Shown here in pieces: positions 4,386 through 39,099 of a stretch of 42,866 nucleotides of DNA (position 1 is the stretch's first letter; every line of letters starts with the position of its first letter). Source of the stretch: Saccoglossus kowalevskii (Eukaryota; Hemichordata; Enteropneusta; Harrimaniidae). Under the pieces are notes generated by a model. The model made no database searches. It saw nothing but the letters and a program-made list of their open reading frames with translations, and was not told where the DNA came from. A program made the translations under genes and the position numbers. The stretch covers positions 364,434-407,299 of the forward strand of contig NW_003108579.1 of NCBI RefSeq assembly GCF_000003605.2, read 5' to 3'.

Positions 4386-4518
4386 TTAAAGGGCGGTGGT
4401 CGTCGTGCCGCGTCCTGTTCGATATTGAACTCATAGCGACGTATACAACGCGTGTAACATACATTGTTTATTTACATGAAATTCAAACTAGCGCTGCGCA
4501 ACGACCACCGCGCTTTAA
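4386..4518 (-). mobile_element. TTAA-flanked palindromic MITE-like element, copy b
   Basis: The element is bounded by TTAA at 4386-4389 and 4515-4518, with terminal inverted repeats AGGGCGGTGGTCGT and AGCGCGGTGGTCGT (second read as reverse complement), one mismatch in 14. The interior (ACAACGCGTGTAACATACAT) matches the reverse complement of the 1325-1454 copy, so it is the same family in opposite orientation. It is non-coding. Confidence 0.65.
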
Positions 4519-8033: not shown

Positions 8034-8081
8034 GTGGATACTATTTATGACTGCGAATTCTTGTGTCGGTGTGTAAGCACT

Positions 8082-9794
8082 ATGAGGATTTCGCAGGCTT
8101 TCAGCGGGATTATTTGTTTTGCTCTTGGGGCTGCGATGTCAACATTGATTTTATTGAATGTCAGCAGGGATATGTGTACGCTGCAACCCAGAAGTGAATA
8201 CGACATCAGACGCGTGGATGACATAGCCGCAATCAGAGGTTTCCCGCCATCGTCTTTTGATCTGACCATAGACGACATTGCGGTAAACGAAGCCGTAGAC
8301 GATATCGACGACGTGTTTCCGGAAAACAACGAACCAATCGATTCAGAGCTCGGTATTGCAAACGAGACCGCCGCGTTGATGAACAATAACGAGGACAATA
8401 TCACGGCCTCTGTTATACAACGTTGGAATGAAAGACAAAATGTCGGAGCTTCGGATACTGAAAGTAAACTAAGAAACAAACTTAGACTTGATGACAAAAT
8501 TTGCGAATGTCACAGGATTCTTAAACACCCATTGGACGATGATATAGACGAGAGAAGACAACAAGAGGCGTTACTATGGTTGCAAGAAGAAAGGGAGAAC
8601 AGGGAGCCGTTGGCGATATGTAAATCTCTGTCGCCTCTTTCCTATATTGGCAGTGGTATAGAAGTTGAACCTCTACAAGCAGTAAGACTTGCTGGTATGT
8701 CATTGGACCCAACGGTTACACAGCTATTACATCAATACGGTACAGATATTTTCTCAGTCCGGCTCAAAACTGTAAATAATGTAGCGGTGCTTTTTATTTC
8801 CCGAACGACAAAAATCGACAGGTTGTTGACACGTTTTGGTGGAGTCGACGTGACTGGAAATGGTACAACGGAATTGACCATATCGAGTGTGAATCTGAAA
8901 AAAATAAATACGCTTTTGCACCAGGTTATTTACAAAAGTACATTTTATGATATTAGCATCCGGGATACTGTGTTGGTGACATTCATGGAGTTCACCATTG
9001 AAGTTCACGTTCATGTCAAACGCCAGACAATGCCCGACCTTTACGACCTAGGCCCGAGTCCTTCCATATCTGACAAAGTCACCGTTATCACTAAGACGTT
9101 CGAACGTTACGACGCGGTCAATCGCCTCGTGAAGAGCATCAAAACATTCTACCCACGTTTACCCATCATAGTGGCAGACGACAGCGAGTTTCCGCAAAGA
9201 ATTGTGGGTAGGAATGTGAAGCAAACCCTGATGCCGTTCGCGGAGGGATTCTTCGCAGGCAGAGGAGTCGCACTGAGCCAAGTCGCAACAAAATACTTTC
9301 TCTGGGTGGATGACGACTTTGTCTTTACAGAAAAGACGAAACTGGAAATTATGTTGGAGAAACTGGAAGATCCGATCTCACGAATTGATATTGTCGGAGG
9401 TATGGTGAGAGGGCGAGCCTATAACAAATGTTACACTTTCAAATATGGCGGACAATCAGGCGACTGCCTCCGAACATTTTACGGAAGTTACCGACCACAC
9501 GACAGGTATCCCCAATGTGACGTCGCCGACGTTGTTATCGACTTCTTTATGGGAAAAACTTCCAGAGTGAGAAACGTTGGTTTTGATCCGGAATATCGTC
9601 GTATTGGCCATTCGGAGTTTTTCATCGACGGATTGGGAAAGTTAAGAGTCATATCCTGTAAAGATGTTGATGTTGATCACGTGCAAGTCAGAAACCCGAA
9701 ATATTCCAAATATAGAATGCGGACGATCGATACAACTGACGCTAAGCGACACACTAATCACCTATTTTTTAATAACAATTTGAAATGTACGTAA
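8082..9794 (+). CDS. Beta-1,4-N-acetylgalactosaminyltransferase-like (GT12), copy 1
   Basis: A single-exon CDS of 570 aa. The open frame extends upstream to a GTG at 8034, but the first ATG (8082, A at -3) directly precedes the expected signal anchor, so it is preferred; a possible 5' UTR splice acceptor (TCTGAG) lies at 8033-8034. The product is a type II Golgi membrane protein: short cytosolic tail, transmembrane segment about residues 7-25, acidic stem to about 150, then the luminal catalytic region. Family signatures are VTVITKTFERYD (333 on), IVADDSE, MPFAEGFFAGRGVALSQ, the WVDDDF motif that binds Mn-UDP-GalNAc (D410-D412), GFDPEYRRIGHSEFFIDGLG and VDVDH. These match vertebrate B4GALNT1/B4GALNT2 (GM2/GD2 and Sda synthases), and the length is similar. 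N-glycosylation sequons lie at 26, 94, 106 and 260. No catalytic residue is obviously missing. The acceptor, glycolipid or glycoprotein, cannot be read from sequence. Confidence 0.93.
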   Translation: MRISQAFSGIICFALGAAMSTLILLNVSRDMCTLQPRSEYDIRRVDDIAAIRGFPPSSFDLTIDDIAVNEAVDDIDDVFPENNEPIDSELGIANETAALMNNNEDNITASVIQRWNERQNVGASDTESKLRNKLRLDDKICECHRILKHPLDDDIDERRQQEALLWLQEERENREPLAICKSLSPLSYIGSGIEVEPLQAVRLAGMSLDPTVTQLLHQYGTDIFSVRLKTVNNVAVLFISRTTKIDRLLTRFGGVDVTGNGTTELTISSVNLKKINTLLHQVIYKSTFYDISIRDTVLVTFMEFTIEVHVHVKRQTMPDLYDLGPSPSISDKVTVITKTFERYDAVNRLVKSIKTFYPRLPIIVADDSEFPQRIVGRNVKQTLMPFAEGFFAGRGVALSQVATKYFLWVDDDFVFTEKTKLEIMLEKLEDPISRIDIVGGMVRGRAYNKCYTFKYGGQSGDCLRTFYGSYRPHDRYPQCDVADVVIDFFMGKTSRVRNVGFDPEYRRIGHSEFFIDGLGKLRVISCKDVDVDHVQVRNPKYSKYRMRTIDTTDAKRHTNHLFFNNNLKCT

Positions 9795-12920: not shown

Positions 12921-13716
12921 ATCGCGAGAAGACGGTGCCTTCCTTTGTCGGTTGTATTAAAGTGAATCCGCTTAATTAAAAATCCCAGGACTGATTCGAA
13001 AATAAAGCACACAGTCGAAATAGGTGTAAAATATATGGCACTACACAGGCAGATGAGCGCGACGGGGATCACGGGAAATAATATTCATCATGATTTATAA
13101 CTAATAATAATCGAATTAGTATTAACAATTTTGTATGCAATGATACATGATGATTAAGAGTTGCCCATCTCTGTTTCCAAGAATATTAAATGTAAATTGT
13201 GGTACAGATATTGCTTCAGTTTATTCAAATAATAGACAGAGTTTCAGCTGCGCGTGAATATTCTGTTTGATTACTCAAACAGCTTGTTGGCTCGTTAGTA
13301 AGCAGTGATTGCCGGACGCTAACGGTTAGTCATACGAGTGTATCAGGTTTTCGCATTTTTATTCGAATAAAACATTACTCTGCCGTCTTTGATGATTTAT
13401 TCGACAATATAGTGATATTGTACGACTGGCCACGAACTCAGACTAAACAAAATGGCGGATTTGATAACGTACTAGGACAATGTTTTCAATACGTCTATAT
13501 CGTGTTCTATGGTTGCTAAACAGTGAAAGTTTCAGTTAGAATATTCACTTTTAAAATCCACGAGTTAAATTATCAATTATAATCACGTGGTGTGTATGTA
13601 TTTTAAATAATCATACAAGGCTATATACGATTTACCAAGGTATATACTATTTTCGTCGATATACTCATTCATGTTTTTCTCGTATCTTTACAGGTGTTGA
13701 TAAATCACTGTGTGTG
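12921..13716 (+). promoter_or_regulatory. Upstream region of copy 2 transferase with YY1-like site and 5' UTR acceptor
   Basis: AAAATGGCGG at 13449-13458 matches the YY1-type element often found just downstream of transcription starts. A good splice acceptor, CGTATCTTTACAG|G, ends at 13693, so the coding exon probably begins at 13694 with a 23-base untranslated leader before the ATG. No convincing donor for the leader exon was identified. Confidence 0.4.
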
Positions 13717-15342
13717 ATGAATGTCTCACACATATTTAGCGCTATATTATATTTCACATTCGGTGTATTCATATCGACCATGTTGTTCCTGAACAGCCAC
13801 ACCATTACACCAATACAAAATTACGACATGATTCAGTACATAGCGGATATCGTCGGAGAGAAACAGTTGGTCGAGTTGTTGAAAAATGGACATCAGATAT
13901 TACCGGATTATCAGCTCCTCGATGACGTATTCGGTGACGTCACTGTGGAGAAGTTGAACAGTCTTGCCGCGGTTATCAGTCATTGGTCACAAAACAGTAA
14001 CACGCCAGAAATGACAGAATATCGACTTCGCCAAAAAATGGCGACGCACGCAAAATCCTGTGAGTGTGAGAAAGAGCAGCGCTTTCCCCTGAATGACGCC
14101 ATGGGCGAGAGAAGAAGGGAAGAATCGTTGCTGTGGAAACGGAGGCAAAGAAGGTACCAGGAACCCCTGACAATGTGTAAGTCGATGTCCCCTCTAAGTT
14201 ACATCGGCAGCGGGATCGTCGTAGAACCAATGCAAATTGTCAGAATTGTCGGTTTGAAGTTAGACCCAATTGTTAGCACGCCCTTTTTCGAGCAAGCATT
14301 GAACGAGTTTGCAATAAGCATACGGTCCAAATATGGTCTGGGAAAACTTTTGGTGCACGGAAGAGTTGATCGTCTGCTACAGTATGCTAATTTCAGCATA
14401 GTCGGGAACAACACCAGAGAAATTAGTATGACCGCAGACAAAACGATTACAGTGAATTTTTTGTTAGACAACTTGATGTACAAAAGTACGTATTACGATA
14501 TTGATATCCGGGATATTATCGAGGTGACATTTATGCGTTTTACCGCGCAGGTGCACGTACATATTCGGCGCCAAATCATGCCGGATTTGTACGATGTGGG
14601 TACGGGGGAAAAACTGAGAGATAAAGTCACTGTCATTACGAAAACGTTCGAACGCTACGAAGCTGTGAATCGATTGGTGGACAGCATAAACCGGTTCTAT
14701 CCAGATGTGAATATCGTCGTTGCCGATGACTCAGAGGAACCGGAAAAAATCACGGGCCAGAATGTGAAACAGACATTTATGCCTTTTGCAGAAGGTTTAT
14801 TTGCTGGCAGAGGGGTCGCCCTCAGCCAAGTGACGACAAAGTATTTTTTGTGGGTTGACGATGACTTTATTTTCACCAAACAAACTAAACTGGAACGTAT
14901 GGTTGAGAAACTCGACGACTTCCCTTCGAATCTTGACCTCGTTGGGGGCACGGTGAACAACAACAGTTACAACAAGTGCTTCACAGTGAAACCCGGTGGC
15001 CAAGATGGCGACTGTCTGTGGTCCATTCATGCCAGATACCGGCCATTGGAGAGATTTCCGCAATGTGACGTTGTTGACGTCGTTGTCGACTTCTTCATGG
15101 CAAAAACTTCGGTCGTTCGACAAATCGGTTTCGACCCGGAGTATCGACGAATTGGCCATACAGCATTTTTCATCGACGGACTGGGTAAAATGCGTGTCGC
15201 CATGTGTCGTGACGTTGATGTAGACCATCAGCCAGTGCGTACCGCCAAATATATGCAATACAGGGCAAGACTCATTGACAAAGACGACCCTAGACGACAT
15301 ACAAACCACCTAATGTTCAACAATAACTTACAATGTGTTTGA
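13717..15342 (+). CDS. Beta-1,4-N-acetylgalactosaminyltransferase-like (GT12), copy 2
   Basis: A single-exon CDS of 541 aa on the same strand as the gene at 8082. The frame opens one codon earlier at a GTG; ATG 13717, just after a splice acceptor, is the likely start. The architecture matches copy 1: anchor at about residues 7-26, a shorter stem, then the conserved luminal domain with CKSMSPLSYIGSGI, VTVITKTFERYE (304 on), IVVADDSEEPE, MPFAEGLFAGRGVALSQ, WVDDDF (D381-D383), GFDPEYRRIGHTAFFIDGLG and VDVDH. The catalytic halves of the two proteins are largely identical, whereas the stems and the segment before the transferase fold have diverged, as expected after tandem duplication. Predicted to transfer GalNAc from UDP-GalNAc in the Golgi; the acceptor is unknown. 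No disrupting mutation is seen, so both copies look functional. Confidence 0.93.
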   Translation: MNVSHIFSAILYFTFGVFISTMLFLNSHTITPIQNYDMIQYIADIVGEKQLVELLKNGHQILPDYQLLDDVFGDVTVEKLNSLAAVISHWSQNSNTPEMTEYRLRQKMATHAKSCECEKEQRFPLNDAMGERRREESLLWKRRQRRYQEPLTMCKSMSPLSYIGSGIVVEPMQIVRIVGLKLDPIVSTPFFEQALNEFAISIRSKYGLGKLLVHGRVDRLLQYANFSIVGNNTREISMTADKTITVNFLLDNLMYKSTYYDIDIRDIIEVTFMRFTAQVHVHIRRQIMPDLYDVGTGEKLRDKVTVITKTFERYEAVNRLVDSINRFYPDVNIVVADDSEEPEKITGQNVKQTFMPFAEGLFAGRGVALSQVTTKYFLWVDDDFIFTKQTKLERMVEKLDDFPSNLDLVGGTVNNNSYNKCFTVKPGGQDGDCLWSIHARYRPLERFPQCDVVDVVVDFFMAKTSVVRQIGFDPEYRRIGHTAFFIDGLGKMRVAMCRDVDVDHQPVRTAKYMQYRARLIDKDDPRRHTNHLMFNNNLQCV

Positions 15343-19838: not shown

Positions 19839-20470
19839 AAATATATATATATATATATTATTATTATTGAGGTTTATTTCAAATTAAAAATATTACACCT
19901 TAGAAGTTAAAACATATGTACACATCAAAATATGTTCGTGCTCCACAGTTTCCATAAAACACTATCCAATAAAATAGAAATGGATAATACAGCTGTAACA
20001 AGTGAGTTGTCAGACAAGTGTAAACGTGAAAAAAACAAACTAAAACACTTCTTTCTAACAATTTCGTCAAAGGTTAAAAGAGATTAACCAACAAACATCA
20101 AACTATTGCTTTGAACATAAGAGTATTTAAAACAATTTTCGAAAAACTTGTGAATGAGCTCTGTGTAATTACTATAAGGCTGAATGGTGTAATAACACCA
20201 TAAATAAGTACACTATGGAACATCACAAAAAACAGAGAACAAATTGCCTCTAACATAAAACATTCTAGTCTTGTTACATATATCACTATCATCTTTAAGA
20301 TCAGAGGTTATTAAATGACCCAAATATTTATATACGTCAACATACTTAAGAATTCTACCATTGAAAAGGATAGACACTGGATTAATTATTCTAATATAAA
20401 ACAGATTATACAAGTTTATTTTACAAAGTTGAATCTTTCCGTTCCAATCGACTAAGTATGTACTTTTTCT
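19839..20470 (-). mobile_element. 5'-truncated LINE fragment (RT C-terminal part and 3' end)
   Basis: The minus strand reads KIQLCKINLYNLFYIRI, then VSILFNGRILKYVDVYKYLG (the LINE post-catalytic YLG block), HLITSDLKDDSDICNKTRMF, a broken FCDVP..CTYLWCYY block, and a decayed YN..R..LM FV segment down to about 20090. An (AT)n tract at 19839-19859 marks its probable 3' end. The catalytic RT domain is absent. Several frameshifts and stops show that it is dead. It stops within about 20 bp of the first coding exon of the cysteine-rich gene on the opposite strand. Confidence 0.75.
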
Positions 20471-20485
20471 AGTCTTTTAATAGTC

Positions 20486-22724
20486 ATGATGACGTGGTCA
20501 AGACAGTTGATGGTTTTCAACCTGCTGTTGGTTATGTTCGTTGCTATGTTGATGATCGACGCAGTTCCAATCGACTCAGAGAACGACACACCTGATATGA
20601 AGCAGTCAGCAATGGACAAATATCATAGTAAGTTTCATGTCAGATATTTTTTACAGCGAAAGCAATTCTGGTTTTGTATTTTTTTTCTCAAAACAAATAA
20701 TTCTAGCGACACAGATGTAATTTCTGCGATAAAATGTATTTAAAGTTAAAAATTTTGTTGCTATCTTGATTACATATGTTAATGATCTTCTAAATTATTA
20801 TTGTTAGTGTCATAAAACTAAAACTCCGTATCATTATGTAGATTAGCTTACTATATTATGCAAATGATGTTTCTAGTCAAAACTGGTCACACTTATGCAA
20901 TGTGTTGTTAATTTAGGGTAGAGCATGTGTTGTCAGCGAATACAACATGTTCCGATTGCATTAAGAAATGTATCACATACCATCTTTGGTCACGTGAACC
21001 TCAAACGTATTTCAGTTTAAATGTTATCGTAATTATTAATTACGCAATGTTTAGGTAAATACGCTCTTTCATCATGCTCCAATAATTAGTTTTTATTCCC
21101 TCGGTGCAGGTATTGCGTTCCCGTTGAATTACCCCTTCTTAGCCCCCCCCCCCTCCACAGGGCAAGAAAACGTTATATACATTTTAGCAGTATTATATTA
21201 TAAAACAAAAGCAGTCAGATCTTACCTGATTTCAAAACAACCCACTTGTGTAATCATCAAAATTGTGTATTCATGAAGCCTATCTATATTGTTTTCAGTT
21301 TGTAAACATGAATTTGTTGACATGCCATGCGTGTGTGATGACAAGGGAAACATTCTGCTGTGCACACAATGGTAAGGACCCTTAATCCTTTTTCTTACCA
21401 GTCTTTGATATTATCTTTTAATATGTGTTATTTAGACAATAACGATTCCCTAACATCACCACATTACATGAGGAGAAGAGTCTGTGGCAAAATAATGTGC
21501 GAGGCGAAGCCAGTGTGACGTTGTGGGAGATTCATTGTTAAGCCGTCACTATCAGAGTTAAAACCAATTCAGTTAAATTTGGAGGATTTTTCGAATGTAT
21601 TTGCGAATAGAGTTTTATTGTATCGTGTAATAATGTAAACCTTTGATAGTGGTGATTTATAACAGAGATTATTGCGGATTCTTTATTTCAATTATAATAA
21701 CCTGGTCTGTCGAAAAATTGAATATACTCGCTGTATTAATAGTAGATAGCGCGTCGTACCCACTTGCATTTCAGTTACGCATAGAAACTCACGAGTCAAT
21801 AACATGTAAATCCACGCAAATAGGTAACATTCCAAATAAAAATGACCAGGATTTCTTAACTTAGATTAATGGTGGATTTGTTGCTTAAACGAACCACACA
21901 AATATGAAGAAATATTGAATACTGATGAAGCACACACGTTCTCGTTTGTATATTAAAGCGGAAGGGTCGTCACCTGCGCACGCGCGGGAATTGAATCCCA
22001 AGCGACGATAACAACACACGCTAAAACGCAAAAGCTCATGGGGGGGGGGTAGTAGTAGACGCTTGTTTATAAACAATGACACGCTATGGCCATCTAAAGC
22101 ATGCGCAGGTGACGACTCCCCCCGCTTTAAACCTGGCACTGCGCTGTTGTATTTTACACGCGTTTTACACGTTGTGTGAGGCCCATATTGAACCCAACGC
22201 GACCCTTTCACTACAACGATCAAAGTATATCCATATATTACTCCAGAAATATGACGCCAACGTATTTATCGTGAGTTGTAGGGCAAGAATGGTTAAGGTG
22301 GTATAGCATTATGTGCAGTCGATATCTAAATGCATACTTCATACTGTGTAGAGAGACTGTTCTCGTCACAAACAGAACACAAAACAACTATTTTGTTCGA
22401 TTTAGTAAGACTACTCGGACTACTAGACTAAATACACTACATAAGACGATAATATCATAAGTTAGGCAAGGCTTTACTAAACTGTATACAACTAAACTAA
22501 GCCAAACTAGACTATACTACACGAGAATAGACTGGACTAAGCAAGACTATACTGCTTTAGACAAGACTGGTTCAAGCTAGACCAGTCTATACTACACTAG
22601 ACTAGTCTAAGCTAGACTTGACAATATTTCATCAGGCTAGAAGAGGAAATAATGTTGTACGCGGTCACATGATCACTTACCCTGTATCTTATTTTTCTCT
22701 TCCAGGAGTACGTTCTTTATATAA
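20486..22724 (+). CDS. Small secreted cysteine-rich (pacifastin-like) protein, three exons, 77 aa
   Basis: The gene is read as a join of 20486-20627, 21299-21371 and 22706-22724. Splice sites are consensus (CATA|GTAAGT, TTTTCAG|TTTG, ATG|GTAAGG, CTCTTCCAG|GAG) and the frame is continuous across both introns (phases 1 and 2) to a TAA; AATAAA follows 106 bp later. Exon 1 encodes a signal peptide (hydrophobic LMVFNLLLVMFVAMLMI, cleavage near IDA|VP) and an acidic linker. Exon 2 encodes CKHEFVDMPCVCDDKGNILL followed by CT: cysteines C49, C58, C60 and C69. The CxCxxxGxxxxCT string resembles pacifastin serine-protease inhibitors and also VWC-type modules. The mature chain would be about 51 aa with two disulfides and no dibasic processing site. 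An acceptor at 20472 (TTTTTCTAG) suggests an additional upstream untranslated exon. Function is unknown: protease inhibitor, signalling or defence peptide are all possible. Confidence 0.7.
21299..21371 (+). CDS. Exon 2 of the cysteine-rich secreted protein
   Basis: This 73-bp exon, too short to appear as an ORF, carries all four cysteines of the protein. It is flanked by a TTGTTTTCAG acceptor and a GTAAGG donor. Confidence 0.7.
21953..22130 (+). mobile_element. TTAA-flanked foldback element in intron 2
   Basis: The element is bounded by TTAA at 21953-21956 and 22127-22130. The left arm AGCGGAAGGGTCGTCACCTG pairs with the right arm (AGCGGGGGGAGTCGTCACCT read as reverse complement), continuing into GCGCAYGC. 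The sequence just to its right (22131-22215) has ACACGCGTT and CCCATATTGAACCCAACGCG strings comparable to the interior of the 1325-1454 element, so the two are probably related or nested. It contains a G10 run. Non-coding. Confidence 0.55.
22404..22620 (+). repeat. Degenerate ACTAGACT minisatellite in intron 2
   Basis: The stretch is composed of imperfect repeats of ACTA(G/A)ACT, CTAGACTA and AAGACTATACT units. It ends about 85 bp before the acceptor of exon 3 of the cysteine-rich gene. Confidence 0.6.
22706..22724 (+). CDS. Exon 3 (coding part) of the cysteine-rich secreted protein
   Basis: After the CTCTTCCAG acceptor the frame continues for six residues (WSTFFI, the W shared with exon 2) to TAA at 22722-22724. 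Confidence 0.6.
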
Positions 22725-22829: not shown

Positions 22830-22835
22830 AATAAA
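22830..22835 (+). other. Polyadenylation signal AATAAA of the cysteine-rich gene
   Basis: First AATAAA after the exon 3 stop, 106 bp downstream. Confidence 0.55.
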
Positions 22836-24622
<1,787 letters not shown>

Positions 24623-28235: not shown

Positions 28236-30585
28236 CAATAAGGAGTGCTTCAATTGAAATGAGATCCCTTCCACAAGAAAATGAATGACACAAGTATTCG
28301 ACTTGTATCACAAGTCATTTCAGAAACCACCGAATGTCACATGGTTCATTTTTAATCATCAACAAATAAAATGATATTATCTTCCTTAATTGGAATTCTG
28401 TAAATCGAGATTTTCTATTCGTGAACTGTGCCAAAACCATTGCATCCACACCCCGTTTATACAGACACATTCCTAAAATAAATCGAAATTAAAAAATACA
28501 ATTGTCGATGGTAGATTACGGGGTAGTCTCTGAATTATCAATATGATAATAAGTTAACACAAAAAACTACTTTAGTTTGTCAATAACTGGTTTGAGAAAA
28601 ATTGCTTAAAAGAAAACAATTTATTTTTTATATATAATAATATGCGTTAACTTATTTATATATATATATTCATAGTCGAAATTATTGAGTAAACTATATC
28701 ATATACATTTAACTTAAATTTAAAACATTTACTTATTGTAAAAAATGTCTTTTTGCGAGCATGTCTTTTTCGCGAATTTCAAGATGTCGCTAATGACTTT
28801 ATTGCCAATTCAAAATGGCCGCCAAAAAAAACCCAGATTGACAAGAGATATTCGCTAAATCAACATTTCGCTATTACGTCATTTTACCACAATTTGCTAA
28901 ATTACATGCCGCTTTTTCAACATGTTTTACAGTATTGATCTTATTTAAAATACCTTTTGGGTCACTAGTCATTCTCACCAAGAACATATCTTAGAGCCAG
29001 CTAGATCTTTTACAACTTGTCCAAAATGATCAAGCTGATTCCAAGAAGTTAGATAGTTTCTAAATCGTTTAATGTAATTTAGTTTTGCTTCCCATTCTTT
29101 ATCATTTGATGTATACATACCAACAATTTTAATGGGTTTAGCGTGAATTAATAAAATTGTATGAAATTGAATATACTTTACGCAATAAATTGGTTTTCAG
29201 ATAAGACTTGCCTGAAAATTAAGGTAAGTTAATCAAGAATACTTCTCTGGCAGTGTGTCCCATAATCTTGAAACTGCAATTTTAAATGCCCGATTTCTGT
29301 AGTGCTACATAATTTAAAACGTGACTAAAGAAGAAATAGTATTGATGATAACGATGTGCTTGGTGTTGTGTGTTCCTCATCTGGGTAAGATGCAACTCGG
29401 TGAGCATTATCAGTTTACATCAGCCACCTTGAATCTGTCAGCGGACAATGCCTTGATTCTGCAATCCCACCAATTCGTAAATTAATTTCTTTATGTATTT
29501 GCAGATTGAGTACATCCGCTAGAATTTTCTATTGCGAACATAATTGCTTGTTATGTCACAAGTTTATTTTCCTTGCTGATCCCGTTCTTCAAAACCATTC
29601 CTACCTCCCCATCAGTTTGTCTAATATTGTGTTGTACAATACCGGCCTTTCCTAGTTTGGCACCCGCACAATTCATTCGAACTAAGGTTTATCTATATTT
29701 CATTGTCTACCATTTAGTAACGTAATTTGATGGCTATACTGCGCTAAAGTTTATGTGATCCTGTTGCTCGCAGAACTTTACAATCTACTAGTGTTGATTG
29801 ATTCGAGCATTCGTATTGTATTAGCATATTGCAATGGTGTTCTTTTAAAATTCGTACTATATGTCCCATTATGTCTCTCTTTGCAACGTGGGAATGTTGC
29901 AGTAGTAACAATATTGTAATCTATTACCACTTTTCGACGTGGATGGGTGTATGTAGTTGGCACGGCTATACCACTATCTTCGATATGGGTTGTTGATGCA
30001 GTGAATCGTAGGACATTTGGATCTTTCTGGAATATTTGCAGGATGCCATTAAAAATTAATGTTTTCATATATATGTATGTATATATATATATATATATAT
30101 ATATGACAATTATAAGTAAATGATAGTAAATAACAATTATAATGTATTTATCCACAATATTATTCGTCTTAACGTAACCAAAGTTTTATTGTTTAAGGTA
30201 TAAACGAGTTTGACTAGTACTTTCCTAGTAATGACATAATTATCATAGACCCATACATTGGGCGAAATGAGAACTTAATTTTTAACAGCCTTTTAAAAAA
30301 GCATGCATGGCGTACTAAAAGCTTTGGGGCATTTGTGTGCAGAATAATATATGAGTGGCTCGCAATCGTTCCCATATTGAACGAAGCAAGTCATTTGCGT
30401 CTATTACCATAAAATGACAATTTGGTATTTTCTATGTGCAAGAATATTCACAATATACACTGTCTCTAAATTGAATCGGATGTTTACTTCGTATCTAGAT
30501 GTTGGATGGAGTAATACCCAAATAATCCCTTACGCTCAGGCAGTCGGTCAGCAGTCGGTCAGTGTATTCTCCGCAGGAACTCGAC
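28236..30585 (+). repeat. Tandem duplication unit, copy A
   Basis: It matches 30638-34862 in the same order and orientation. 28236-29143 against 30638-31554 is nearly identical by eye, then the match resumes at 29144 against 32590 with lower identity. Copy A lacks three segments present in copy B (31555-32589, about 32770-33287, and 33670-33945). The unit carries a truncated piece of a LINE on the minus strand and an (AT)n tract (30067-30104). Confidence 0.85.
28800..29143 (-). mobile_element. L1/Tx1-like LINE remnant, internally deleted copy
   Basis: This is the same sequence as the corresponding part of the minus-strand LINE at 31200-31554 (PIKIVGMYTSNDKEWEAKLN and the following C-terminal portion). 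The homology stops abruptly at 29143, where the rest of the RT is missing. Confidence 0.65.
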
Positions 30586-32390: not shown

Positions 32391-33669
32391 TGAGAAATAT
32401 TGTCAGTAATACATTTATTGTAACAAATTGTTGGCCTATCATTGTTTGATTTTTAAAATAATATTTATTTCTTATATTATAGCGCATCACATAAAAGAAT
32501 AATATGAATGCACTTGACACGAAAAAAAAATCCAGCAGGTAAATTAAATGATACATCCAAATTGTAATAATTTGTGTAACTATTTTCTGTGAATTAATAC
32601 AATTTAAAAAAAAAACCCTTGTTGCAATACACTTTACGGGATAAGTTGACTTTCAAATAAGACTTGCTTGAAGATTAAGGTAAGTTAATCAAGAATACTT
32701 CTCTGGCAGAGTGTCCCACAGTCTTGAAACTACAATTGTAAATGCCTGATTTTTTTAGTGCTCCATTATGTTTATGAATTGATTGTAGATGAAGAACGAG
32801 TTGCTCTAACTAGCCCATAAATATGAACGAGGTCAGACAAATAGGCTGTTGCTTCTTCATACCAGATCTGATAATATGTCAAAGTTTGAGGTTTGACAAG
32901 TCAGTCTTATGGTCATTGATTACTTACTACTATTTTCTATTTTCAAGGCTTAAAAATTACTTTTTTTATAATTTTTGTTTGCTGGGTCAGAAATAAGAAG
33001 ACCTTTCAATTCAATTAACTGTTGTTCCAACTCGTTATTATTTTATTACCGCTGTGTTGTTCTGTCTTGTTTTGCTTTTACTTGTCGTTGCCAAAAACTT
33101 TCATTCTTTTGAACACAATCTCATTTGATTGTTTCATTCCTAGGGAAGCAAACCTTTTTTTTCTTCATTTTCTAAATTGTTTTACACTATTTATGTTAAA
33201 GTACTGCACTTTGTTCTTAGCCATGCAAACTTCAGTAAAAGATATGGCACATAACAAAAATGAGCTATAAAACAAAATAATACCAATTAATTCAAAACAT
33301 GACGAAAGAAGAAATACTATTGATGATATCGATGTGTCCTGGTGTTGTGTGTTCCTCATCTGGGTGAGAGGTAACTCGGTGACCATTATCGATGTTTACA
33401 TTACCCATCTTAAATCTGTCAGCGGGCAATGCCTTGATTCTGTAATCCCACCAAATCGTAAATCAAATCTCTTCAGATGTATTTGCAGATTGTGTACATC
33501 CGCCAGAATTTTCCATTGCGAAAACAATTGCTTGTTGTTATGTCACAAGGCAATTCATTAACTTTGCTGATCTTGTTTCCACCTCGCTAATGTTTTCCCC
33601 ATCAGGTTGTCTAATATTGTGTTGTACAGCAGCGGTCCTCCCTAATTAGGCACCTGCACACTCGAACTA

Positions 33670-33945: not shown

Positions 33946-34862
33946 AGGATTATCTATATTTCATTGTCTGCCAGGAAGCGTGTCAAAACGAGTAATTACC
34001 ATTAGCAAGACAATGTAATTCGATGGCTATACTGCGCTAAAGTTTATGCCATCATGTCGATCGCAGAACTATACAGTCTACGAGTGTTGATTGATTTGAG
34101 CATTCGTATTGTATAAGCATATTGCAATGTTGTTCTTTTGAAATTCATACTGTATGTTCCATTACGTCTCTCTTCGCAACTTTGGAGTGCTGCAGTAGTA
34201 ATACTATTGTAATCTATTACCACTTTCCGACGTGGTGGGGTGTATGTAATAGGCACGGCTATTCCACTATCTTCGATATGGGTTGTTGATGCAGTGAATA
34301 GTATGCACTTAAAGTACATAGAATAGAATAATTGGACCCTTCTGGAATATTTGTAGGATGCCATTAAACATTGATGCTTTCATATATACGTATATATATA
34401 CGACAATTATAAGTAAATGATGATAAATAACAATTATAATGTATAAGGATGTATCCACAATATTCTTCTTAACATAATCAAAATGTTTTATGTTTAAGGT
34501 ATAAACGAGTTTGATTAGTACGTATCTAGTAATGACATAATTATCGTGAATTCATACATTCGACGATATGAGAACTTAATTTGTATCACTCTTTTCAAAA
34601 AACATGTATGACGTAATAAAAGCTTTGAGGCAGTTGTGTGAAGAATAATATATGAGTGGCTCGCAATCATTCACATATTGAACGAAGCAGGTAACTAGCG
34701 TCTATTACCATAAAATTACAATTTGGTATTTTCCATGTGCATGAAGGTCACAATATACTTACAGTCTCTAAATTTACTTTGTATCTAGATGTTGGGCGGA
34801 GTGATACCCAGATAATGCCTTACGCTCGGGCAGTCGGTCAGTGTATTCTCCGCAAGAACAGA

Positions 34863-36317: not shown

Positions 36318-37526
36318 TCAATATTTGATTGGTGGAACCAATAGACGTTCAGACTGCCCGACAAAGCTAGGAGCTGGTGGTATATAGCTATGACTCGAAG
36401 GCAGAGCGGAGATAAAACTGCTCCCCGAGGTAGTATGAATGGTCGACGTCGTCAGTAATGTATTCCTTGACAACATCGGCTGTTCAATGGTATGATTCGG
36501 TATTCGCGTGCCACGTCCTGAATTATGAGACGATGCTGGGTTTATTTTACGAGATTTCCTCCACAGGCGGCACAGGAGCGCATTTTTGTAGGCATTTCGG
36601 AAACTGTCGTTAAAACACGCGTAGATAACGGGATTTACCCAACTATTTGAAAAGTTGGAACAGACAGAGAAAAGAGCCACTGCCCTCAGATTGGCATGAC
36701 TACGTGTATAGTCCACATAATTGACGTACAGGTAAAATGTATAGTGAGGTAGCCACATCACGAAAAACAAAATAACCACCATCGAGAGCATTTTCACAGC
36801 GTTTTTCTTTTTGTAACCCGTGCTGCTGACTGGTTGCTTCTCCAGCCACAGTTTATAGACCATTGGAGCGTATAACCCCGTGAGAACAAATAATGGTATT
36901 AAAAACAACACAAAGAAGTCAATAACACGAAATGTCTTTAGCGTATACTGCGGGAGGTGGTGGCAATATGGAATCTCAAACGTCTCATTGCCGATCTGGT
37001 ATCGATATATCTGATACTCCCACGCTATCGGAACGTAGCTGGCGTAACTCATCGCACAAGACCATGCCACGACCACCATGATAGCAGCCTGTCCCCGCGT
37101 GATCTTCGGCTTCAGTGGTGTGACAATTGCCCTGAAGCGATCCGAAGCGATGGCGATGAGAGTGAAAACACTGGCTCCCGTGCTGGTGAGTTGGATAAAT
37201 CCGTCGATGTTACAAATGATTGGGTTTACCATAAGACTCAGCGCTTTGTTCCACATAATTACCGACGGAATGTAATAGGCACCCACGAGAAGATCGGAGA
37301 CCGCTAGTGATGCTATTAGCACATTGGAGCCAGCTTGGCGTAGCTTTGGCTCTAAAAGTACCGCCACAATAACCATGAGATTCCCAGACACAATAAGAAA
37401 CATACATAAACCATACATGGTGTATATCACGCTTTCTGACACGTATCCATATGTTGGTTCGATGACATCACTATAGGACGTGGTCTCGTTAAGTAAACTT
37501 CCGTTTTGCGTGATCAGGTTATTCAT
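36318..37526 (-). CDS. Rhodopsin-family (class A) neuropeptide-type GPCR
   Basis: A single coding exon of 402 aa. The frame extends six codons upstream to a GTG, but ATG 37526 sits four bases after a splice acceptor (TTTATTTGTAG), so it is the likely start with a 5' UTR intron. Seven hydrophobic segments are visible. Landmarks: glycosylation sequons N8, N13 and N180; GN49 in TM1; LAVSD78 in TM2; C105 at the top of TM3 paired with C188 in loop 2; D129-R130-F131 (DRF for DRY); W155 in TM4; P211 in TM5; MWLP (W258, P260) in TM6 where CWxP is usual; NPVIY (298-302) in TM7; C319 as probable palmitoylation site; Ser/Thr-rich tail. SDRFRAIVTPLKPKIT resembles the NPFF-type (RFamide) receptors, so a plasma-membrane receptor for an amidated peptide is likely, but the ligand is not determinable. 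No disruption is seen. Confidence 0.92.
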   Translation of the reverse strand: MNNLITQNGSLLNETTSYSDVIEPTYGYVSESVIYTMYGLCMFLIVSGNLMVIVAVLLEPKLRQAGSNVLIASLAVSDLLVGAYYIPSVIMWNKALSLMVNPIICNIDGFIQLTSTGASVFTLIAIASDRFRAIVTPLKPKITRGQAAIMVVVAWSCAMSYASYVPIAWEYQIYRYQIGNETFEIPYCHHLPQYTLKTFRVIDFFVLFLIPLFVLTGLYAPMVYKLWLEKQPVSSTGYKKKNAVKMLSMVVILFFVMWLPHYTFYLYVNYVDYTRSHANLRAVALFSVCSNFSNSWVNPVIYACFNDSFRNAYKNALLCRLWRKSRKINPASSHNSGRGTRIPNHTIEQPMLSRNTLLTTSTIHTTSGSSFISALPSSHSYIPPAPSFVGQSERLLVPPIKY

Positions 37527-37530
37527 TTCA

Positions 37531-39099
37531 CTACAAATAAACACATATTAAATTAACGGTTACACCATAAAATGCTGTACTATACAAAACAGATGCATTT
37601 TAGAATTGATGATATACACACGGCTGTGAGATACAAAAAGTAATATTACTGAACACTTATTATTGTGCCCTTCTAGGTGAGAATCAAGAACTATTATGTT
37701 AATATAGCTATTTCTTTCATGTAATATCCACAAAAACAAGTTTAAAACTTGTTACCACCCAATATTCATAAGCGATGGGGTTATCTGCAAAGAAAGATTG
37801 ATGCGAATTGGAAGCGTATAAGTCCTCGCTTATCGCCTATGACAAACTACTGAACTGCCGTATTTTTTACAAATAGGCCTGTGACCTCTATATCCAGTAC
37901 GCGACACACTGTTTTAAAACCAATGGGCAAACCTCGTCGTGTTTGAATTTGTCCTTATGGTGCTCGTAATCACTGTAAAGCTATCGTTTGTTTGCATAGG
38001 TTATTTCATAACAATATGCAAAATATTTCTCAGCAGTTTCAAAGAGATATTTTTTTGAAACTGTATTGACGTATCTCAACGCGACAAATAAATGTTGACC
38101 AAACACAGTCACAACTAAAATCTTATTCAGCCTATTAAGTTGTTTAACTTCCCATTGTATCTCATGGCAAGCAAAAGATTGTGACGAAAACAACAGCCAA
38201 CTTCGAAAAAAAAGGTTATACACGTCTTGGGCAGCAATAAATAAACACACATGAGATACACACGTGTATTTACCGTGTACAAATTAGGGCGCTATTAAAT
38301 AATAATTTTGGACATTATCCCACACAAATATCTTTGGATATTTATTTTATTTAGGGGTATAACATAAGGTGCAATGCTTAGATTACTTGCCTTTTTTATT
38401 GTAATGTAGTATTGTATACATCTAGGTGCTATTGGTTTATACATCCATCACTCGGTAGATGATTGGCATATCGGCTACATATACAACTCCTGCAACATTA
38501 GATACACATGAATTTAGTCAATGATTCGATTGCTCGTCATACACTGTACACACATATCAAATCTAACCCATCATATCAAAAGCCGTTCAAACCACGACGA
38601 AAAGGTTGTAGTCGCTAATTATCTATTGTTATCTGGCTTGTTCAATACTTGCCATAACACGAAATAGATGTGAATTGTGGATTGCATTACTGGAAATTTC
38701 TAAACTTCTTGCCACGTGGCGAAATACATTTTTTTTTTCAATTTACGTGGTATTTGAAATACCACGCATTTGTACATATAATAAGACTTAAACTGGGATT
38801 GTGTATTTATTCCCAAATCACTGAATTTCTCAAATCATTAAGACTAATGTGTACCAAACAGTATAAATAGAGAAAAGAAAACAAACTTGAATAGATTAAG
38901 TTCATGTGAACAGATACTAAGTTTGTTTTCGTGAAATTTGGCGTTTTTAATAAAAAAACAATCTAGTTAACAAATCTATTTAATTGCAACTTACTATTGT
39001 AACATCAATGTAGCCGTGTTCTAGTGATAGGGAGGCAATGCTGATTCAATAAGATTTGAATGTAATAAACAATAAGTAGCAGTGCCAATGTTTCACCAC
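37531..39099. other. Upstream region of the GPCR gene; no other gene seen
   Basis: AT-rich, with the presumed 5' UTR intron and promoter of the minus-strand GPCR gene. No leader exon, TATA box or other gene could be assigned with confidence. Confidence 0.4.

Follow-up and report, generated by a model that had tools for sequence, protein, structure and literature searches.

A small three-exon protein-coding gene of an invertebrate-type animal genome appears to lie on the forward strand of a 42,866-nt stretch of Saccoglossus kowalevskii DNA (contig NW_003108579.1, positions 364,434 to 407,299; hereafter "the window"). At a probability of roughly 60%, it would encode a 77-amino-acid secreted precursor giving rise to a lineage-specific extracellular ligand or effector, and not a canonical pacifastin. 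The open frames, splice signals, hydrophobic start, exon 1 codon usage, stop codon, and AATAAA behind this reading can be read directly from the DNA. Orphan, lineage-restricted secreted cysteine peptides are a common kind of animal gene, and the product is most likely an ordinary one of these. The initial annotation of the locus had proposed an unrecognized small secreted peptide gene with a pacifastin-like pattern of cysteines; the first part of this proposal is plausible, and does better than chance by codon score and in Markov controls, while the pacifastin part did not survive. Annotation easily overlooks small secreted peptides that are spread over several exons. If expressed, this would be one more orphan cysteine peptide in an animal secretome, with no bearing on pacifastin evolution unless spacing intermediates appear.

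Gene model and predicted peptide

Exon 1 (20486..20627; all exons are on the plus strand) carries the start codon, a signal-peptide-like segment with a candidate cleavage site after Ala26, and an acidic linker. A 671-nt, phase 1 intron with the donor GTAAGT (20628..21298) separates it from exon 2 (21299..21371), which holds all four cysteines in the arrangement C-x8-C-x-C-x8-C-T. Intron 2 (21372..22705) is 1334 nt long and in phase 2, with both donor and acceptor strong, and leads to the coding part of exon 3 (22706..22724), which supplies the last five residues and a TAA at 22722-22724. An AATAAA polyadenylation signal follows 106 nt beyond the stop (22830..22835). Joined, the three exons contain no internal stop and yield the 77-aa product MMTWSRQLMVFNLLLVMFVAMLMIDAVPIDSENDTPDMKQSAMDKYHICKHEFVDMPCVCDDKGNILLCTQWSTFFI. 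The three-exon observation of the initial annotation is thereby confirmed: all the exon borders and the GT/AG introns were reproduced exactly from the sequence, the spliced frame translates as claimed, and the signal-peptide-like start, the stop, and the nearby AATAAA are at the positions given for them. Transcription of this model, and the exact borders of its second and third exons, are predictions.

Upstream, a candidate TATA box (TATAAAA, 20395..20401, plus strand) is found 91 nt 5′ of the ATG; it is modest evidence, since there are 17 such heptamers on the plus strand of these 42.9 kb. If transcription starts near 20425, as we infer, the transcript would include an upstream ATG with a four-codon uORF (ATG TAC TTT TTC TAG, 20458..20472, plus strand). 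Just upstream of the gene, on the minus strand, there is also a stop-free stretch of 87 codons (20216-20476). By a motif, it resembles the end of a retroelement reverse transcriptase; a retroelement remnant suspected at this position was rejected, as Pfam gave no support for one.

Intron 2 contains a short, MITE-like dispersed repeat (21953..22132) that is bounded by terminal inverted repeats (21966-21983 and 22099-22116). Copies with 82% identity are found in two pieces of flanking DNA (L005, 4329-4495, and L002, 8051-7887). The repeat is within the intron and outside all exons, which was counted in favor of the gene model. It also underlies part of a 112-aa ORF on the minus strand (21885-22223). 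A second short repeat (22148-22203) has copies at 1376-1433 and 4409-4463 and in L002, with 76-81% identity.

At the protein level, the candidate signal segment has a mean Kyte-Doolittle hydrophobicity of 3.2 over 12 residues; it was judged only by hydrophobicity and by the −3,−1 rule, and could still be a signal anchor. If the gene is expressed, residues ~1-26 would send the precursor into the secretory pathway, and cleavage after Ala26, where the −3,−1 rule places it, would release an acidic mature peptide of ~51 residues (computed pI 4.46, 5.9 kDa). Its four cysteines (C49, C58, C60, and C69) would probably form two disulfides, closing a C-terminal loop from C49 to C69. The mature peptide may then have an extracellular role, as a ligand or defence effector specific to the lineage. 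By simple rules, a signal-like start followed by four cysteines in 51 residues qualifies the product as a generic small secreted cysteine-rich peptide.

Coding signal, competing exons, and chance

Support is unequal among the exons. A codon score derived from the window's three long genes places exon 1 above every one of 4538 overlapping, stop-free noncoding segments of the same length, and within the 5-95% range of the long genes, which are also the training set; the segment past the signal peptide likewise scores positive. Of 16,456 stop-free noncoding segments, 14.6% score as high as exon 2 or higher, so that by codon usage exon 2 is not distinguishable from noncoding sequence. Splice sites were scored with approximate metazoan matrices and ranked against all GT or AG sites on the plus strand of the window. 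Among 2563 GT sites the donor of intron 1 (20628) ranks 83rd, a moderate score, and that of intron 2 (21372) 8th; among 1936 AG sites the acceptor at 21299 ranks 96th, moderate to mediocre, and that at 22706 is 2nd. Support for exon 1 is good; for exon 2, with its ordinary codon score and its acceptor at rank 96 of 1936, it is weaker.

This imbalance, with the strongest coding signal in exon 1 and little in exon 2, is what would be expected if exon 1 were a real signal-peptide exon joined to the wrong second or third exon, and the four-cysteine pattern were an artefact. The true continuation could be an exon at 22876, or exons farther away. Within intron 1, two acceptors, at 21110 (rank 4 of 1936) and 21161 (rank 1), outscore the one at 21299. 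Beyond exon 3, an alternative terminal exon (22876..22891, plus strand) has an acceptor of rank 6 of 1936 and its own AATAAA at 22970; a product using it would contain six cysteines, reading ...LLCTQCCLNY at its end, with Cys72 and Cys73 two and three positions past Thr70. Against this, the products made via 21110 and 21161 run into stops after 55 and 38 more residues, with neither AATAAA nor ATTAAA within 300 nt of their ends; a poly-C run directly precedes 21161; and the donor of exon 2 is at rank 8 of 2563. A misassigned second or third exon is on balance somewhat unlikely.

The model could also describe a dead gene, or open frames and splice-like sites that fit together by chance in AT-rich intergenic DNA. 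Frame continuity over the two introns, offered earlier as evidence for the gene, does little against this: stretches of 23 codons without a stop can be read from ~26% of positions, exon 2 is free of stops in two of its three forward frames, and any terminal exon will soon meet a stop. Consistent with a chance origin, no homologue was found in Pfam, PDB, or viral contigs. As a null, order-3 Markov copies of the window were searched, strand by strand, for three-exon models. In two runs, a model with a summed splice score equal to the candidate's, a hydrophobic start, four or more cysteines, and an AATAAA was present in 24 of 3868 strands and in 29 of 4971; requiring in addition a hydrophobicity of at least 3.0 (the candidate has 3.2) left 2 of 4971, and requiring the candidate's codon score as well left none of 4971, but since the criteria were fixed post hoc, after the candidate had been seen, these counts flatter it and are not unbiased probabilities. 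The same applies to a smaller run with stricter limits on single sites (0 of 40), and to models with four cysteines including C-x-C, which turned up in 17 of 3868 null strands at a summed score of at least 12 and in 3 of 4971 at a score of at least 15. The stop-free reading across the three joined exons is a further point against chance. Because the combination of features beats chance in these post hoc controls, the locus is likely to hold a real gene for a small secreted peptide, and a chance assembly or dead gene is unlikely.

The peptide of such a gene may have four cysteines or six, depending on whether the acceptor at 22706 or the second terminal acceptor at 22876 is used. It could conceivably belong to a new secreted-peptide family with a C-x8-C-x-C-x8-C core, in which the choice of last exon (22706 or 22876) would give a four- or a six-cysteine peptide; we consider a family of this kind quite doubtful.

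Relatives and genomic neighborhood

Searched as DNA against the host genome (4830 contigs, 572 Mb; E ≤ 0.001), exon 1 returned a single match, itself, so no recent near-identical duplicate of this exon is seen. By tblastn, the best match in the window outside the gene had an E-value of 1.1, and none was credible. Nor was a credible paralogue found in 100 kb of flanking sequence, searched as ten 10-kb pieces with matches considered to E 3; 12,776 of these bases are N, including all of L006, the flank adjoining the window. The best match in the flanks (L007, E 0.16) aligned one cysteine. Two others, both with E 0.53, aligned two cysteines each: L009 5547-5582 (CKHWFVSCAMAC) and L008 2330-2359 (CVHEHFNFPC). 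These were rejected as paralogues, as they run into stops and are without the G-x4-C-T half of the pattern.

Pfam searches with the 77-aa peptide and with its C-terminal 30 residues gave no match above cutoff. A hit to Brr6_like_C_C (E 0.0071; 16.6 bits vs. a cutoff of 25; residues 10-72) spans the signal segment and was set aside as a chance match, and the two viral chains matched in PDB (E 0.49 and 0.68) are at chance level. Among viral contigs there were two pattern matches and no relative.

The window has a GC content of 35% and animal-like gene content. Two similar single-exon glycosyltransferase genes are arranged in tandem (8034-9794 and 13714-15342), with Pfam GT2 in both; the product of the first, the only one of the pair tried against PDB, matches B4GALNT1 (9h6j, E 4.5e-73). 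On the other side of the three-exon model, on the minus strand, there is a single-exon rhodopsin-type receptor (36318-37544), for which neuropeptide FF receptor 2 is the nearest PDB match (E 9.6e-37). Similar translated stretches, also on the minus strand, at 29781-30185 and 34047-34379 (FTASTTHIEDSGIAVP...) are apparently copies of one repeat, with no Pfam match, and those on the plus strand at 29449-29535 and 33271-33558 (CLDSxIPPxRK...CICRL...TSARIF.C) are perhaps copies of another; both pairings were made by eye. A long (AC)65 microsatellite occupies 24492-24622. Some 33 kb upstream of the window, a C-type lectin stretch was found on the minus strand (L003 5985-6569; Pfam Lectin_C, E 1.5e-05), and a Thr/Pro-rich repeat is present at the end of L002. 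Rfam had no match in the window.

Comparison with pacifastins and other cysteine-rich domains

The pacifastin consensus, as given in a 2009 survey, is C1-x9-12-C2-N-x-C3-x-C4-x2-3-G-x3-6-C5-T-x3-C6 (PMC2689174). In the candidate, only the interior of this pattern is found. C58-V-C60-DDK-G64-NILL-C69-T70 agrees with C3-x-C4-x2-3-G-x3-6-C5-T. The other elements are absent: from C49 to Asp55, at the position of Cys2, there are five residues instead of 9-12; Asp55-Met56-Pro57-Cys58 stands where Cys2-Asn-x-Cys3 would be; and Thr74 takes the place of Cys6. The six-cysteine form made via 22876 does not provide a Cys6 either, its two extra cysteines being two and three, not four, positions past Thr70.

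The spacing can also be compared with known structures. Ten pacifastin sequences from PDB, five each from lists of 15 and 17 distinct sequences (the 17 including one unrelated ubiquitin hydrolase), all have 9 residues from C1 to C2 and 12 from C1 to C3. The PDB tables name 1kgm and 1kj0, which are SGCI and SGTI, serine protease inhibitor I and I/II. In the candidate there are only 8 residues between C49 and C58, vs. the 12 of the PDB pacifastins. With spacings of 5 and 8 instead of 9 and 12, C49 is not at pacifastin position 1, and the claim that the candidate's cysteines fit positions 1, 3, 4, and 5 fails.

Pacifastin disulfides had been given as 1-4, 2-6, and 3-5, which is correct according to two sources (PMC2689174, PMC5691223). 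The argument built on it, that exactly one bonded pair (2-6) has been lost, needs C49 to be Cys1, which the spacing denies. The inhibitory loop, with its reactive bond, is described as lying between Cys5 and Cys6, the last two cysteines (PMC2689174); since Cys6 is missing, this loop is absent. PF05375 was not reported for either the 77-aa peptide (E ≤ 1) or its C-terminal 30 residues (E ≤ 10), in searches whose HMMER filters can drop weak matches. Pacifastin membership was rejected on the basis of the C1-C2 spacing, the missing Asn, the missing Cys6, and the lack of a profile report. A degenerate pacifastin, reduced by loss of the 2-6 disulfide to a two-disulfide inhibitor or signal, could account for the agreement from C3 to C5-T, but is highly improbable given the C1-C2 distance, the absence of Cys2, Asn, Cys6, and a closed reactive loop, the Pfam result, and the statement in the 2009 survey that its authors had found no pacifastin in Deuterostomia, Annelida, or Mollusca (PMC2689174).

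Exon layout decides nothing here. According to the same survey, the pacifastin domain is spread over two exons in Trichoplax and contained within one in insects, most insect pacifastin genes encoding the signal peptide in exon 1 and the domain in a separate exon (PMC2689174). Among the papers listed in literature searches, none reported a pacifastin-like four-cysteine peptide in its title or at the start of its abstract.

Of other cysteine-rich domains, fibronectin type I, VWC, antistasin, and TIL were considered; Pfam returned none of them, whether queried with the complete peptide (E ≤ 1) or with the last 30 residues (E ≤ 10). Several of these domains share a C-x-C followed by a further Cys, and they differ from the candidate in number of cysteines and in spacing to the first one. 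Compared to pacifastin (PF05375; 1kgm, 1kj0, and PMP-C, 1gl1), the candidate has its C49 four residues nearer to C-x-C than is Cys1 in the PDB sequences, and is without C2, the Asn after it, C6, a reactive loop, or a profile match. What it does share with pacifastin is a short motif, C-x-C-x3-G-x4-C-T, and the form of a small secreted precursor, with signal peptide and cysteine part on separate exons.
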